Positions 20,419 through 25,996 of a DNA stretch of 64,000 nucleotides are shown piece after piece. The first letter of the stretch is position 1, and each line of letters begins with the position of its first letter. The position numbers were made by a program, and so were the translations under genes. Under the pieces are notes generated by a model that made no database searches, was not told the origin of the DNA, and saw nothing but the letters and a program-made list of their open reading frames with translations. Source of the stretch: Verrucomicrobiales bacterium (GTDB taxonomy: Bacteria > Verrucomicrobiota > Verrucomicrobiia > Limisphaerales > UBA9464); contig JAIYBC010000004.1 in assembly GCA_027488845.1 (NCBI GenBank), positions 106,603 through 170,602 of the forward strand, given 5' to 3'.

Positions 20419-20634
20419 ATGCAGGCCCCCAGGAAGCGGTTGATCCAGCCGACGGTCGCCTTCTCGGCCTCCTTCGAGGAGTCCGACCGCAAGGACAGGG
20501 AGTTCTGGCGGTCCCGGACCTCCCAGGAACGGCTGTGGCACCTCGAGTTCCTCCGCGAACTGAACTATGGACCCGAGACATCTACCCATCGACTTCCGAG
20601 AGTTCCTCGAGTGTCTCAACGGAAGTGGGGCTGA
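20419..20634 (+). CDS. Small protein upstream of and overlapping nucleotidyltransferase (putative antitoxin-like partner)
   Basis: MQAPRKRLIQPTVAFSASFEESDRKDREFWRSRTSQERLWHLEFLRELNYG...; 68-bp overlap with next ORF. Confidence 0.55.
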   Translation: MQAPRKRLIQPTVAFSASFEESDRKDREFWRSRTSQERLWHLEFLRELNYGPETSTHRLPRVPRVSQRKWG

Positions 20635-21019
20635 GTATCTCCTGGTCGGAGGCCATGCGGTCTGCTTCCACGGTTACGCCCGGATGACCTCGGACATGGA
20701 CGTCTGGTTCGGTGCGACCCCGGAGAATGCCGAACGGGTTCTCAAGGCGGTCCGAAGGTTCTTCGGGGATGAGATGGCGGGACTGACCGTGGAACAGCTT
20801 CTGGACCCCGGTCACGTCACCCACTTCGGGGCCCGGCCGTACCTGATCGAATTGCTGAACCGTGTCTCGGGAGGCGACTTCGAGAAGGCATGGAGGAATC
20901 GGGTCCAGGTCGTCCACGATGGGATCCCGATCAACTTCATCGGTCTCGAGGACCTGCTCCTGAACAAGCGTGCGAGCGGCCGGAGCAAGGACAGCGCCGA
21001 CATCGAGAACCTGACCTGA
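20567..21019 (+). CDS. Nucleotidyltransferase (AbiEii/DUF6036-like)
   Basis: GAEYLLVGGHAVCFHGYARMTSDMDVWFG; catalytic DxD-like motif. Confidence 0.8.
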   Translation: MDPRHLPIDFREFLECLNGSGAEYLLVGGHAVCFHGYARMTSDMDVWFGATPENAERVLKAVRRFFGDEMAGLTVEQLLDPGHVTHFGARPYLIELLNRVSGGDFEKAWRNRVQVVHDGIPINFIGLEDLLLNKRASGRSKDSADIENLT

Positions 21020-21025
21020 TTTCAA

Positions 21026-21691
21026 ATGACCACCGAACAGATCGCCCAGGCCAACGCCGAACTGCGTGGCCTTCCCGCCCTCGACGTCGTCCGTTGGGGC
21101 CTCGAGCAGGCCCGCGGCCGCGCCGTCGTCTCCACCAACTTCCGGCCCTACGAGGCCGTGATCCTGCACCTCGTCACCCGGATCCAACCCGACATCCGGG
21201 TCCTCTGGGTCGACCACGGCTACAACCGCGCGGCCACCTACCGCCATGCGGAGGACCTGAGGAAGCGGCTCGGGCTCAACATCCACGCCTACCTGCCCCG
21301 TCTGACCCCGGCCCACTACGACGCCGTCCATGGCGGCATGCCGGAGCCGACCCCGGAGAACGAGGAGCGGATCAAGGCGTTCAGCACCGTGATGAAGCTG
21401 GAGCCGTTCCAGCGCGGCATGCGCGAGATGGCGCCGACCGTCTGGATCACGGCGTTGCGCAAGGTGCAGAACCCGAACCGCGCCGGACTCGACATCGTCG
21501 GCGCCGACGGGAACTTCGGCGCCGAGATCAAGCTGAGCCCGGTGTTCCACTGGAGCGACGCCGAGATGGAGGCCTACCTGAAGGCGAACGACCTGCCGAA
21601 CGAGTGGGACTACTTCGATCCCGCCAAGGCCGACGAAAAGCGCGAATGCGGCCTCCACGCCGGCTGGGGAGGCAAGGCGGTCAAGGGTTGA
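21026..21691 (+). CDS. cysH: Phosphoadenylyl-sulfate reductase family
   Basis: VVSTNFRPYEAVILHLVTRIQPDIRVLWVDHGYN...ECGLHAGWGGKAVKG; stop TGA lies inside the first octamer repeat. Confidence 0.92.
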   Translation: MTTEQIAQANAELRGLPALDVVRWGLEQARGRAVVSTNFRPYEAVILHLVTRIQPDIRVLWVDHGYNRAATYRHAEDLRKRLGLNIHAYLPRLTPAHYDAVHGGMPEPTPENEERIKAFSTVMKLEPFQRGMREMAPTVWITALRKVQNPNRAGLDIVGADGNFGAEIKLSPVFHWSDAEMEAYLKANDLPNEWDYFDPAKADEKRECGLHAGWGGKAVKG

Positions 21692-21788
21692 AGGGTTGAA
21701 GGGTTGAAGGGTTGAAGGGTTCAACGGTTCAACGATTCAACGATTCAACGGTTCAACGGTTCAAGGGTTCAACGGTTCAACGGTTCAC
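21685..21788. repeat. Left octamer array: (GGGTTGAA)x4 then GGTTCAAC/GATTCAAC-type units
   Basis: Read directly. Confidence 0.95.
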
Positions 21789-21804
21789 ACAAAAGGGAAA
21801 CGAG

Positions 21805-22275
21805 ATGGCATCGATGGAAATCCAAGGGGAAGGAGGCTTCCGGACTTTCGAGGATTTGGAGGTCTACCGCTTCGCCAGGGAGTTCCGGAGGGAACTCTAC
21901 GCTGTGGCGCGCAAGCTCCCCGCGGAGGAGCGCTTTGCGCTGGGAGACCAGATCCGGCGGGCCGCCGTTTCCCTGACCAACAACATCGCCGAAGGCCATG
22001 GGCGTTACCATTTCCAGGAGCAGATCCGGTTTCTCCTGATCGCCCGAGGCTCCCTTGAGGAACTCATCGACGACCTGAATACCTGTCTCGATGAATCCTA
22101 CCTACCTGCGGAGGAAGTCGAACGGCTTCGAGTCTTGGGATGGCGGGTCCATCGGATCCTCGCGGGCTATCTCCGACACCTACGCCAACGCCGTGACGAC
22201 GACCAAGTCGGCTTGAAGGAACCCACGGTTCCCTACCGAACCTGCTGGAACGCCCCCGAAATCCCAGCCGACTAA
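21805..22275 (+). CDS. Four-helix-bundle protein (23S rRNA intervening-sequence protein / S23 family, Avd-like fold)
   Basis: FRTFEDLEVYRFAREFRRELYAVARKLPAEERFALGDQIRRAAVSLTNNIAEGHGRYHFQEQIRFLLIARGSLEELIDDL. Confidence 0.92.
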   Translation: MASMEIQGEGGFRTFEDLEVYRFAREFRRELYAVARKLPAEERFALGDQIRRAAVSLTNNIAEGHGRYHFQEQIRFLLIARGSLEELIDDLNTCLDESYLPAEEVERLRVLGWRVHRILAGYLRHLRQRRDDDQVGLKEPTVPYRTCWNAPEIPAD

Positions 22276-22339
22276 CCCTTCAACCCTTCAACCCTTCAAC
22301 CCTTCAACCCTTCAACCCTTCATCCCTTCATCCCTTCAT
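22276..22339. repeat. Right octamer array: (CCCTTCAA)x5 then (CCCTTCAT)x3
   Basis: Read directly; begins the base after the S23 TAA stop. Confidence 0.95.
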
Positions 22340-22366: not shown

Positions 22367-23305
22367 ATGAGCAGCTACCATCTCGACCATCTCCAGCACC
22401 TTGAGACCGAGGCCATCCACATCCTGCGGGAGGTGGCCGCCGAGTTCGAACGCCCAGCGATCCTCTTCTCCGGGGGCAAGGACTCCATCTGCATCCTCCG
22501 CCTCGCCGAGAAGGCGTTCCGTCCGTCGGACATCCCGATGCCCTTCCTCAACGTCGAGACCGGCCACGAGTTCCCCGAACTCATCGAGTTCCGCGACCGC
22601 CGGGCGAAGGAGCTGGGGGCGAAGCTGATCGTCCGCACCGTGGACCAGGCCATCGCCAACGGCAGCGCCACCCCGGCACCCGGCGAGGTCAGCCGCAACC
22701 GGCTCCAGATCCCCGTGCTGCTCGGCGCCATCGAGGAGTTCCGCTTCGACTGCTGCATCGGCGGCGCCCGGCGCGACGAGGAGAAGGCCCGCGCCAAGGA
22801 ACGGTTCTTCAGCTTCCGCGACGCCTTCGGACAGTGGGACCCCAAGAACCAGCGTCCCGAGATCTGGAACCTCTACAACGCCCGCCTCAACGCCGCGGAG
22901 AACATGCGCGTGTTCCCGCTCTCCAACTGGACCGAGATGGACGTCTGGGAATACATCCAGCGCGAGAAGCTCGAGGTCCCGAACATCTACTTCAGCCACC
23001 ACCGCGAGTGCTTCCGACGCGGCGGACAGTGGCTGCCCGTGCCGCCGGAACACACCGACGCCACCCGGCCCGATCCCTACGCCGGCGCCCGCCCGCGTCC
23101 GAACGAGACGGTGAAGTCCATGGTCGTCCGCGTCCGCACCATCGCCGACATGATCAGCACCGGCATGATCGAGAGCCCGGCGGAGTCGGTGTCCGACATC
23201 ATCACCGAGATCGCCGCGGCGCGGGTCACCGAACGGGGCACCCGCAACGACGACAAGGCGAGCGAGGCCGCCATGGAAGACCGCAAGAAGGCCGGCTACT
23301 TCTGA
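22367..23305 (+). CDS. cysD: Sulfate adenylyltransferase subunit 2
   Basis: HLDHLQHLETEAIHILREVAAEFERPAILFSGGKDSICILRLAEKAF. Confidence 0.96.
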   Translation: MSSYHLDHLQHLETEAIHILREVAAEFERPAILFSGGKDSICILRLAEKAFRPSDIPMPFLNVETGHEFPELIEFRDRRAKELGAKLIVRTVDQAIANGSATPAPGEVSRNRLQIPVLLGAIEEFRFDCCIGGARRDEEKARAKERFFSFRDAFGQWDPKNQRPEIWNLYNARLNAAENMRVFPLSNWTEMDVWEYIQREKLEVPNIYFSHHRECFRRGGQWLPVPPEHTDATRPDPYAGARPRPNETVKSMVVRVRTIADMISTGMIESPAESVSDIITEIAAARVTERGTRNDDKASEAAMEDRKKAGYF

Positions 23306-23359
23306 GCTGGCGGGCCGACCCGGATCCCCCCTCCGGATCCGGGTCGGCCCTGGTTCCGC

Positions 23360-25996
23360 TCATTCGAAGACGACCCGGACGAATCGCTGCGGCTTCGCGG
23401 CATCATCTCCCAGCTCGAACTCGTCGGCGCTGCCGGCAGGAACCGCTGGCAGCCGCAACCACGCCCGAAGGTCCTCCGACACCTCGAACGCAACGGGGCG
23501 CACCGGAGGTGTCCCCGCACGAGGCGCCCCGATTCGGACACGAAACCTGCCACCGTCGGGCCAGGCACCGCCAACGGGCGTCACAGGGGGCAATTGATCC
23601 AAGGGCAGCACCGTGAGCCGTGCCCACGCGCTGTCCCGGGCGCCGGACCCGTTGGAGACCCGGCACCGGTAATCCCCGGCCGACTCCATGCCGACTCCGG
23701 CGATCTCGAGCTGTGGCCCCGTGGCCAGGGGCAGGAGCCGTTCGCCATGCCACCATTCGAAGCGGAGGGATTCGCCCTCTGCGCGGACCCGGAACACGGC
23801 TCTTCCTCCGACGAAGACCGAGATCGGCGACGGATCCGACAGTATCGTCGGTGGCAGGTCGATGGACGGGGTGACGGTGACCCGGACCGGGATGGTTTCG
23901 AAGAATCCCGCGTCGTTGCCCACGAACACATGGTACTCTCCGGAGTCGAGGAGGGTCGCCGAATCGACCCGGAGATCGGCCAGTGTGTGCTCGGGAAGCC
24001 ACTCGAAGTTCCGGTACCAACGGATCCGGAAGGGGCCGGTGCCGAGGAATCCCACGGAGAGCTGGAACGGTTTCCCCACCAGCACGGTCAGCGGTTCCGG
24101 CGGCACGACCAACGTCGGCGCCACCATCCTGGGATCCACGACGAGCGTCGCCCAAGCCGTGTGGATCTCCGCACCCAGCCGGCGGATCCGGCACCGGTAC
24201 CTCCCGGCCTGCGCCGGCACGACGGAACCCAGCATCAGGACCGGTTCCGTCCGACCCGACAACACCCGGTCCTCTAGGAACCACTGGAACTCGCTGCCAT
24301 CCAGGGGATCGACGACGACTTCAAGACGTGCGGTGTCACCCTCGACGACACGGACATCCCGGGGTTCCGCCACGATGCGGGGTGCACCGGCATTGGTGAC
24401 GGTGAGGGTCGCCCGAGCGCTGCGGACGAGGCCGTTGGTATTCGAGACCTCGACCCAGTACTCGCCCGCGTCCTCCAACCGGACCGCAGACAGAGACAGC
24501 TCGCGGGAGCCCTGACCGACGACGTTCGTCTCTCCCCGGAACCACCGGTAGAGGAGCGTCGGGGTTCCAGCCGCCTGGACCGACAGGACCACGTCGGTGC
24601 CCGAGGCCACGACGCGGTCTCGGGGACCATCCAGGATATAGGGATCCGTCGGGATCCCCTGCCCGCCCGAGCGGAAGAGCCTGAAGGCATCGACACCGAC
24701 GAGTCCGCCGCTCGAGCGGTCGACGGCGATGTTGCCAACCTGGACGAACCGGGCCTCCCACCACAGGCCGTCCTGCGGGTCCGTGGGCAGTTCGCGAAAC
24801 TCCTGGCCGAACGGAGTCTCGATCACCTCGATGTTCCGGGGGCGTCCGCCGGCAAGTGTGGACACCTGGCCGCTGCCGAGGTCGATCAGCGCCAAACGTG
24901 TGCCGAGCCCGAGGACGAGGTGCTGGGAGCCGAGGTCGACGAGATGGCCACTTCCCAGATCGACGGGTGGCCCGACGAGGGCGACGTCGAGCGCGCCGTC
25001 GGCGAGACCGGAGGTGGGGACGTTCGTGGCGCCGACATCCCAGCCGAAGCGGGTTCGGATCGTCCCGTCTGGCGAGAGGTGGCGGAGTTTCCGGTGGTCC
25101 CAGAGCCAGACGCCACCCCGGAACGGCGAATCGCCAAAGGGATTCAGTGCGTCCGGCCTTGGGCCGCGACAGATGCCGGTGATCCGGAAGACAGCTCCGT
25201 TGGTCCCCGGACCGTCTGCCTGACGGTACGGCGGAAAGGGGTTCTGGCCCTCGTTCGCGAAGACCGTGACGATGCGTCCGCCGATCAGGCGCCGAACCAC
25301 CTGACCGAACTCCACCCACCACAGCTCACCCTCGTGGGTGACGGTCATGGCACCGACGGATCCGATGCCCGCCGGGTTGGCGGGCACCACCGGATCGCCG
25401 TCGGCGGCGAAGCGGATGTCGCCGTCACGGATGCCGGTGGCCGGCGCGATCGTGAACATGTTGCCCTCGGAATCCATCCGTCGAAGGCCCATTTCGTCCG
25501 CGAAGTAGACCAGACCGTCGGAGCCGACCGCCAGGGCGGTCACGTTCCTGAAGTGCGCGGTTCCGGGGCGTCCGTCCCGGAGCTCGTTGCCGGGACGTCC
25601 CTCGACCACGGTCCGGACCACGCCGGCCGAAGAGACCGCGCGGATGCGCGCCGGGAGGACGTCGAATCCACGGATCACCTCGTCATCGGCGACCCAAGCC
25701 GCACCGTCCGGCGCGACCGCCAGGGCCACCGGTCGGCGGAACCCGGCGTTCGTCCCGGCTCCGTCGGATTCCAGGCGGGCGTTGCCGACGAAAGTGGAGA
25801 ACCGGGTGCCGGGCCACGTGTAGCGGTACGACCTCAGCACCGGGGGATCCTCGGGCGGCACAGGAAACCGGTTGGACTCCGGGAAAAGCGTGGCGTGGGC
25901 CGCAACGGAGGAACCGGCCACGACAAGAAGAAAACGAAGCAGCAGCGTCGCTCCGGCGGCCCACTTTGAGAGCACAAGGCGGATGTGTCTTTTCAC
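23360..25996 (-). CDS. Secreted NHL-like beta-propeller protein with Ig-like domains (GTG start inferred)
   Basis: NHL-type segments (VALAVAPDGAAWVADDEVIRGFD), repeated Ig-like blocks (DAGEYWVEVSNTNGLVRSARATLTV; SAGDYRCRVSNGSGARDSAWARLTV). Confidence 0.8.
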   Translation of the reverse strand: MKRHIRLVLSKWAAGATLLLRFLLVVAGSSVAAHATLFPESNRFPVPPEDPPVLRSYRYTWPGTRFSTFVGNARLESDGAGTNAGFRRPVALAVAPDGAAWVADDEVIRGFDVLPARIRAVSSAGVVRTVVEGRPGNELRDGRPGTAHFRNVTALAVGSDGLVYFADEMGLRRMDSEGNMFTIAPATGIRDGDIRFAADGDPVVPANPAGIGSVGAMTVTHEGELWWVEFGQVVRRLIGGRIVTVFANEGQNPFPPYRQADGPGTNGAVFRITGICRGPRPDALNPFGDSPFRGGVWLWDHRKLRHLSPDGTIRTRFGWDVGATNVPTSGLADGALDVALVGPPVDLGSGHLVDLGSQHLVLGLGTRLALIDLGSGQVSTLAGGRPRNIEVIETPFGQEFRELPTDPQDGLWWEARFVQVGNIAVDRSSGGLVGVDAFRLFRSGGQGIPTDPYILDGPRDRVVASGTDVVLSVQAAGTPTLLYRWFRGETNVVGQGSRELSLSAVRLEDAGEYWVEVSNTNGLVRSARATLTVTNAGAPRIVAEPRDVRVVEGDTARLEVVVDPLDGSEFQWFLEDRVLSGRTEPVLMLGSVVPAQAGRYRCRIRRLGAEIHTAWATLVVDPRMVAPTLVVPPEPLTVLVGKPFQLSVGFLGTGPFRIRWYRNFEWLPEHTLADLRVDSATLLDSGEYHVFVGNDAGFFETIPVRVTVTPSIDLPPTILSDPSPISVFVGGRAVFRVRAEGESLRFEWWHGERLLPLATGPQLEIAGVGMESAGDYRCRVSNGSGARDSAWARLTVLPLDQLPPVTPVGGAWPDGGRFRVRIGAPRAGTPPVRPVAFEVSEDLRAWLRLPAVPAGSADEFELGDDAAKPQRFVRVVFE

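Follow-up and report, generated by a model that had tools for sequence, protein, structure and literature searches.

S23-family genes lie between mutually inverted short-period arrays in diverse bacteria and may form a class of exchangeable cassettes

The S23 gene between cysH and cysD

Between the cysH-like and cysD genes of the window (by which we mean the whole 64-kb stretch of DNA that was analysed) lies a single small gene bounded on both sides by arrays of short tandem units (Table 1). The first-pass annotation had described a perfect inverted repeat of 37 bp around this gene, and we confirm the repeat at an actual length of 39 bp: positions 21683-21719 are exactly reverse-complementary to 22276-22312, and the match runs 2 bp further inward to pair 21683-21721 with 22274-22312, the two extra right-hand bases being part of the TAA stop codon of the S23 gene. 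Its statements that the left array covers the cysH stop codon and that the right array begins at the S23 stop are likewise seen in the sequence, the right-hand block C of TTCAACCC units running from 22276. What had been overlooked is a further array, block B, which directly adjoins block A and runs in the direction of C, opposite to that of A. Arm A is inverted relative to both B and C, and the S23 ORF stands between B and C. The copy number of block B varies among close relatives, the window having more copies than the related genome G012. No second perfect inverted 20-mer match within 3 kb was found elsewhere in the 64-kb window.

The S23 gene is the sole ORF inside the cassette. Its assignment to the S23 family rests on scores above the cut-off for both profiles, with 98.6 bits against PF05635 (E 3e-28; family cut-off 33.8) and 87.5 bits against TIGR02436 (E 6e-25; family cut-off 24), and there is a weak match to bAvd (PF22296). 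The element is also, as had been noted, outside any rRNA gene, for it sits between cysH and cysD and no rRNA match was found around this region. The predicted fold of the 666-nt cassette is more stable than those of shuffled versions (z -5.9), which counts for little, since every perfect inverted repeat will fold.

Two neighbouring features of the sulfur operon may be recorded here. A DUF6036 nucleotidyltransferase-like gene (window 20567-21019, + strand) stands as an accessory gene between a sulfite/nitrite-reductase-like ORF and cysH, with no arrays detected around it. Right after cysD (window 23309-23385, - strand), a match to Rfam Scr3920 falls below threshold (32.7 bits vs a gathering value of 88) and is most likely a terminator-like hairpin.

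Table 1. Positions of the window cassette, its host genes and related cassettes in other genomes. Positions without a locus prefix are those of the window.
Feature	Position	Strand	Remarks
cysH-like PAPS/APS reductase, left host gene	21026-21691	+	outside cassette; 3' end and stop overlapped by arm A
Left arm A	21683-21721	+	AA-(GGGTTGAA)x4-GGGTT, 39 bp; complements 22274-22312 perfectly; overlaps cysH stop codon
Block B	21720-21787	+	8-nt units, mostly TTCAACGG/TTCAACGA, one TTCAAGGG
S23 / 23S_rRNA_IVP gene (four-helix bundle)	21805-22275	+	156 aa; other possible ATG start at 21814
Right arm C	22274-22338	+	(TTCAACCC)x5, then TTCATCCC units; complements A perfectly over 39 bp
cysD, sulfate adenylyltransferase small subunit, right host gene	22367-23305	+	outside cassette
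GxxExxY (TIGR04256/PF13366, PD-(D/E)XK-like)	L079:1078-1452	-	own inverted arrays
GxxExxY (TIGR04256/PF13366, PD-(D/E)XK-like)	L084:2203-2577	+	own inverted arrays
HepT-MntA-like pair and VapBC-like pair	L041:6590-7726 and L041:9470-10290		G044 contig C174; within inverted TTTCAGCG arrays

Inverted arrays around S23 genes across bacteria

The genome from which the window comes (G000; 5.39 Mb in 69 contigs) contains 8 PF05635 matches, and at most of them (loci L001-L006) the gene is flanked left and right by inverted arrays of short period. The first-pass annotation had asked whether array units differ from locus to locus, and at the S23 loci of this genome each unit is indeed different (TTTCAAGTGTTCAG, GGCGTCA, GGGTTGAA, GTTGTC/GACAACT, CTTAACCTTAATCC and GATTCCC). 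S23 is antisense to the host genes at L002, L004 and L006; since cassettes also occur with other cargo or with no gene, as described below, the cassette is not specially an element of the cys mRNA. A gene-agnostic scan of 447 kb of the same genome found that inverted array pairs within 1.5 kb always involve an S23 locus, there being three such pairs, at two S23 loci, with two of the pairs sharing an arm.

Flanks were scored by the best local alignment of the 350-bp upstream flank with the reverse complement of the downstream flank, with flanks of other loci serving as the null. Across 80 S23 loci from the window's genome and its relatives in the same order, the locus's own pair ranked first in 34 and within the top 5% in 50, where ~1 and ~4 were expected. 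A second set of 78 S23 loci was drawn from many phyla (its named genomes being from Bacteroidota, Chloroflexi, Planctomycetes, Acidobacteria, Spirochaetes, Proteobacteria, Bacillota and Cyanobacteria, with one archaeal MAG). Here the score reached at least 30 in 36/78, as against 1/85 neighbouring genes used as controls, which are mechanical ORFs, and fell within the top 5% of mismatched pairs in 50/78 vs 5/85. Gammaproteobacterial S23 loci scored at least 30 in 20/27 and within the top 5% in 19/27; for PIN genes, a control made up of small accessory genes from the window's relatives, the corresponding counts were 0/25 and 2/25. Arrays therefore do flank S23 genes far more than control genes, which was the comparison proposed at first pass. 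A high-scoring pair is missing at about half of the loci in the 80- and 78-locus sets, some S23 loci lacking one because their arrays have decayed or been cut off by contig ends; the genomes are draft assemblies, in which tandem arrays are poorly resolved.

The typical cassette is 480 bp long and has an S23 ORF of ~120 aa, a stem of 29 bp and ~4 units per array, the arrays lying typically 24 nt upstream of the start codon and 11 nt downstream of the stop. Several genomes contain many such cassettes, and in a Pirellulales genome strong two-sided arrays are present at 6/7 of the S23 cassettes examined. Almost every locus of the cross-phylum set has an array period of 7, whereas periods of 6, 7 and 8 all occur in the window's order; the upstream array strand is purine-rich in 75/89 cases. 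A search for a heptamer consensus returned a weak, purine-rich and AG-cored motif (information 2.28 vs 1.98 for permuted units, max 2.04), which is too weak for a shared unit sequence to be relied on. An Rfam scan placed none of 57 S23 loci in rRNA, and no S23 match was found in phages. The general anatomy across bacteria is an S23 ORF between mutually inverted arrays of 6-8 nt units, with a different unit at each locus.

Tandem arrays also occur apart from S23 genes. Their frequency in the window's genome is ~1 per 10 kb, and those dispersed in the genome, as sampled from two contigs and the window, are mostly solo and in one orientation. Away from S23 genes, 23/42 solo arrays match arrays that bound S23 genes in the same genome, compared with 0-5/42 for the arrays of eight other genomes. 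Four dispersed families, GACGCCY, TTCAACCY, ACAACGG and GAATCNG, also serve as the boundary arrays of one S23 cassette apiece. Single-orientation solo arrays of the GACGCCY, TTCAACCY, ACAACGG and GCTCCCT families are seen at positions 93094-93264 of contig C65 and at ~40 other places, and no S23 partner for the GCTCCCT family was found in this genome. The window itself has a solo heptamer array at 343-410, with TCGTGAT followed by GATTCCA units, which probably belongs to the GAATC-type family bounding the S23 gene of L006.

Replacement of cassettes and evolution of S23

The S23 cassette is present between cysH and cysD in G000, G012 and G005. Among genomes whose flanking genes are 98-99% identical, this site may hold the cassette seen in the window, an S23 allele that has diverged from it, or a GxxExxY gene. 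One replacement is in G013, which matches the window's cysH and cysD at 99% DNA identity, yet has between them a GxxExxY gene with inverted arrays of the ACACGGATT type; G029 also has a GxxExxY gene at the site. Among more distant relatives, G037 has at this site a distant S23 flanked by AGACCCC arrays, G035 and G057 (L093 and L106) have a hairpin that is built of 7-8 nt units of the TTGGGAGAT type and encloses no gene, and others have nothing there. In both G035 and G057 an S23 gene lies ~1 kb beyond cysH on the same contig, and in G035 (L061) it has the same array type as the hairpin. The GGGTTGAA arrays are missing wherever that S23 is missing, which indicates that the gene and its arrays are gained and lost together.

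At a second site, L002, G012 and G013 are empty of S23 (60-78 bp vs 637), and at a third, L004, a GxxExxY gene with CACGGAG arrays replaces S23 in G005. Empty and swapped sites of the kind sought at first pass thus exist in very close relatives at cysH-cysD, L002 and L004, and these sites, the enrichment of arrays and the locus-specific units all favour the earlier proposal that the array-ORF-array unit may be a small mobile cassette. Cassettes swapped at one site carry different arrays, and so the arrays are not the shared homology there. No target-site duplication was seen, the empty sites being too diverged to show one, and neither a transposition event nor a precise boundary was seen in the site comparisons. 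S23 copies of high protein identity are mostly at orthologous sites, as judged by BLAST of the flanks, which implies that movement is rare or old and that much of the pattern is vertical.

The GxxExxY genes, which replace S23 at two sites, are a second, parallel cassette class. Those at cysH-cysD in G029 and G013 score 139.0 and 136.2 bits against TIGR04256 (cut-off 35). Across 27 loci with TIGR04256 genes the own flank pair ranks first in 17, the units being of 8-10 nt and CNCGRAT type; GxxExxY genes with their own inverted arrays of this type are seen at L079, L084 and L108-L137. Because S23 and GxxExxY are interchanged at two sites among very close relatives, the genomes concerned form ready-made before/after pairs from which the mechanism could be worked out. 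In 658 kb of fetched loci from the window's order we counted 56 inverted array pairs, with 36 enclosing S23, 5 enclosing GxxExxY, 10 spanning <200 bp and 5 enclosing other sequence, proportions that are biased because the loci were picked for S23, GxxExxY or cysH. Toxin-antitoxin modules are rarely cassette cargo, a HepT-MntA pair and a VapBC-like pair in G044 making up two of the five pairs that enclose other sequence; near the HepT-MntA-like and VapBC-like cassettes of G044 contig C174 there are three S23 genes.

At two sites shared by G000 and G012 the dS of S23 is 0.67 and 0.92, as against 0.05 and 0.10 for cysH and cysD. Over all pairs tested the dN/dS of S23 is 0.05-0.23, showing that the protein is constrained by purifying selection. 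Identity falls to 54-75% at either end of the cassette, climbs to 93-98% within the S23 core and lies at 92-100% outside, a mosaic that speaks for replacement or conversion between arrays and against clock-like descent.

The array period also follows S23. With pairs that have homologous flanks left out, an S23 gene and its nearest relative share their array period in 32/44 cases (shuffled mean 18, max 30 of 1000). In a quick S23 tree with few columns, five of six 6-nt loci are in one clade (support 100) and two 8-nt groups (support 100 and 95) stand together. The similarity of array letters correlates weakly with S23 identity (0.14 vs null max 0.13), and since it is the period that tracks the S23 clade, spacing is kept while letters drift. 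The suggestion made at first pass that the arrays may be a recognition sequence of S23 has indirect support: period tracks clade at non-homologous sites, and solo arrays match the S23 arrays of their own genome. The link of period and clade could nonetheless arise without recognition, from co-inheritance alone.

Comparison with known elements and interpretation

IVS elements with an S23p ORF lie in the 23S rRNA of Coxiella and Leptospira and measure ~430-760 bp, and that of Coxiella combines the S23 ORF with a 28-bp terminal stem and upstream tandem heptamers of strain-variable copy number (PMC4990558). The cassettes described here resemble the 23S rRNA IVS in the S23 ORF, in the complementary, stem-forming ends (the 39-bp repeat of the window) and in the tandem units beside the ORF. 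Unlike the IVS, they lie between protein genes, in either orientation, and not in an rRNA gene, and their dispersed array families and gene swapping are undescribed for IVS.

In REPIN-RAYT systems, pairs of protein and repeat are thought to spread or maintain their own repeats (PMC3116915). The likenesses are several: short inverted repeats are dispersed, and a genome has several of the protein genes, every one of them next to a repeat family of its own (PMC3116915); gene-less inverted doublets occur (the cysH-cysD hairpins of G035 and G057, and the 10 short pairs in the fetched loci); and dispersed repeats match gene-bounding ones, as 23/42 solo arrays do here. The S23 cassette is not classed as REPIN-RAYT because the partner is not a transposase, the enclosed protein being S23 in place of a Y1/IS200-like enzyme; the repeats differ too, being tandem arrays of 6-8 nt units, constant in period but free in sequence, and not palindromes of 16-20 nt.

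Dispersed heptamer arrays have been described in Xanthomonas (GGGAATC) and Nostoc (GGGGA(T/C)T) (PMC4692102) and in Beggiatoaceae (TAACTGA) (PMC4679880). These resemble the present arrays as intergenic 7-nt tandem units, typically ~4, with many inverted pairs in Xanthomonas; they were reported without a link to S23 and without association to known mobile elements, and those of Xanthomonas were left unexplained. The solved S23 structure comes from X. campestris, a species in which heptamer arrays were described (PMC4692102). Like MITEs and insertion sequences, the cassettes are small, have inverted ends and are present or absent at a site; unlike them they have no transposase and no conserved termini, the array letters differing per locus. 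With the Avd protein of DGRs, S23 shares the four-helix-bundle fold class, but the window's genome has no detected reverse transcriptase and no template/variable repeat organisation was seen at the cysH-cysD locus.

The reading we prefer, by analogy with these systems, is of an exchangeable, IVS-like cassette in a REPIN-RAYT-like relationship, with S23 as the putative repeat-reading partner, and we consider it about evenly poised between right and wrong. Direct support exists for the anatomy, the specificity for S23, the spread across phyla, the joint gain, loss and replacement, the purifying selection and the match of clade and period. The element would consist of a single small gene (S23, the nuclease-like GxxExxY or, rarely, a toxin-antitoxin module), or of none, between two inverted 6-8 nt arrays, at ~480 bp in all. 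A homopentameric S23 ring would bind the single-stranded array, as RNA or DNA, with each subunit reading one array unit, such that spacing and not exact sequence is recognised; one unit per subunit in a ring would explain fixed spacing with free letters. S23 would thereby aid the spread or upkeep of its array family, including dispersed solo arrays of the same genome, whilst cutting and joining would be done by host enzymes and the inverted arrays would pair to form a stem by which the insert loops out of the host transcript, in the manner of the 23S rRNA IVS. S23 binding, transposition chemistry and RNA processing are parts of this account that we infer. The one relative with a solved structure, 2gsc, is XCC0516 of X. 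campestris, and its form has been given as a homopentameric toroid (PMC4990558). A search aimed at the XCC0516 locus in 387 Gammaproteobacteria gave a best match of 55% identity and so fell short of that locus. We know of no catalytic site in S23.

Two rival explanations weigh most: passive recombination among dispersed slippage repeats, and a function of the stem at the RNA level. Under the first, which we regard as rather unlikely, the arrays would be slippage-prone dispersed repeats without a partner protein, host recombination would use them, present as they are at many places, as short stretches of homology and swap the small genes that they enclose, and S23 and GxxExxY would be cargo kept otherwise. 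Arrays are indeed dispersed in the genome and vary in copy number among close relatives, divergence is confined between the arrays with the mosaic identity that recombination would give, and HepT-MntA and VapBC-like modules are also within inverted pairs in G044. However, the dispersed arrays are mostly solo and of single orientation whereas S23 genes stand within inverted pairs, an arrangement that small accessory genes of other kinds do not show (0/25 PIN genes, 1/85 neighbours). Moreover, a period that follows the S23 clade at unrelated sites is unexpected of passive cargo, and the cassettes swapped at one site differ in the very arrays that would have to recombine.

That the arrays form a long transcript stem, which is excised by RNase III or insulates the neighbouring genes, and are kept for this, with S23 binding or protecting the excised RNA, appears unlikely, although the RNA-isolation idea put forward at first pass is still a serious rival. 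Such a stem alone explains neither the tandem period, nor the link to S23 clade, nor the solo arrays, and the scanned S23 loci are without exception outside rRNA. It would work in either orientation, as seen, and agrees with insertions between genes of operons; the Coxiella IVS, with the same anatomy of 28-bp terminal stem and tandem heptamers, is excised by RNase III (PMC4990558). The fold of the 666-nt cassette points the same way, but its stem energy is the trivial outcome of a perfect inverted repeat.

A DGR-like system, in which S23 would take the part of Avd and the arrays would be signals for retrohoming, is highly improbable, and for the window's genome is refuted, barring a reverse transcriptase outside PF00078 or in an assembly gap: the 5.39 Mb contain no RVT_1 (PF00078) match, and only 21/59 relatives have one. 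The common S23/Avd fold, the weak bAvd match, the frequency of PF05635 in DGR-linked sets (PMC10053308) and the fast evolution of S23 genes at shared sites would suit such a system, but the change is mostly synonymous (dN/dS 0.05-0.23), unlike targeted protein hypervariation. Chance or a low-complexity artefact, to which the abundance of tandem arrays in the genome might lend itself, has a negligible probability given the S23-specific enrichment in three locus sets over mismatched pairs and two gene controls.

The exchangeable-cassette reading can be extended to a broader and more tentative one, possible though on balance doubtful, in which S23 proteins would be the trans-acting partners of dispersed 6-8 nt tandem arrays, each copy driving its own family, the 23S rRNA IVS would be such cassettes landed in rRNA, and GxxExxY would form a second class. 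If true, this would be a mobile-repeat system without a transposase or reverse transcriptase in the element. To our knowledge S23 genes have so far had no known role, and we know of no accepted explanation for the over-abundance of heptamer repeats in bacteria; linking the two would give both a testable function. The comparison suggests that array-bounded cassettes may be a genome-wide class to which the 23S rRNA IVS belongs as one instance, so that the origin of the IVS can be tested; and the gene-plus-repeat packages swapped between close strains point to mobile or exchangeable DNA of a class so far overlooked. In the open-access literature we found no work joining non-rRNA S23 genes to flanking arrays, which is no proof of novelty.

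Other candidate explanations were set aside. A RAYT-driven system was rejected on the Y1_Tnp matches, of which there is one in the window's genome and none in G013; a CRISPR array, because the units are contiguous and have no unique spacers; and insertion of S23 into the middle of an array, because it would leave direct flanking arrays and those observed are inverted. A survey of CRISPR linkage includes '23S rRNA IVP' as a candidate (PMC10910872), and S23-adjacent arrays might there have been taken for CRISPR-like repeats. Several decaying S23 copies, with in-frame stops, were also seen in the genomes G039 and G063.
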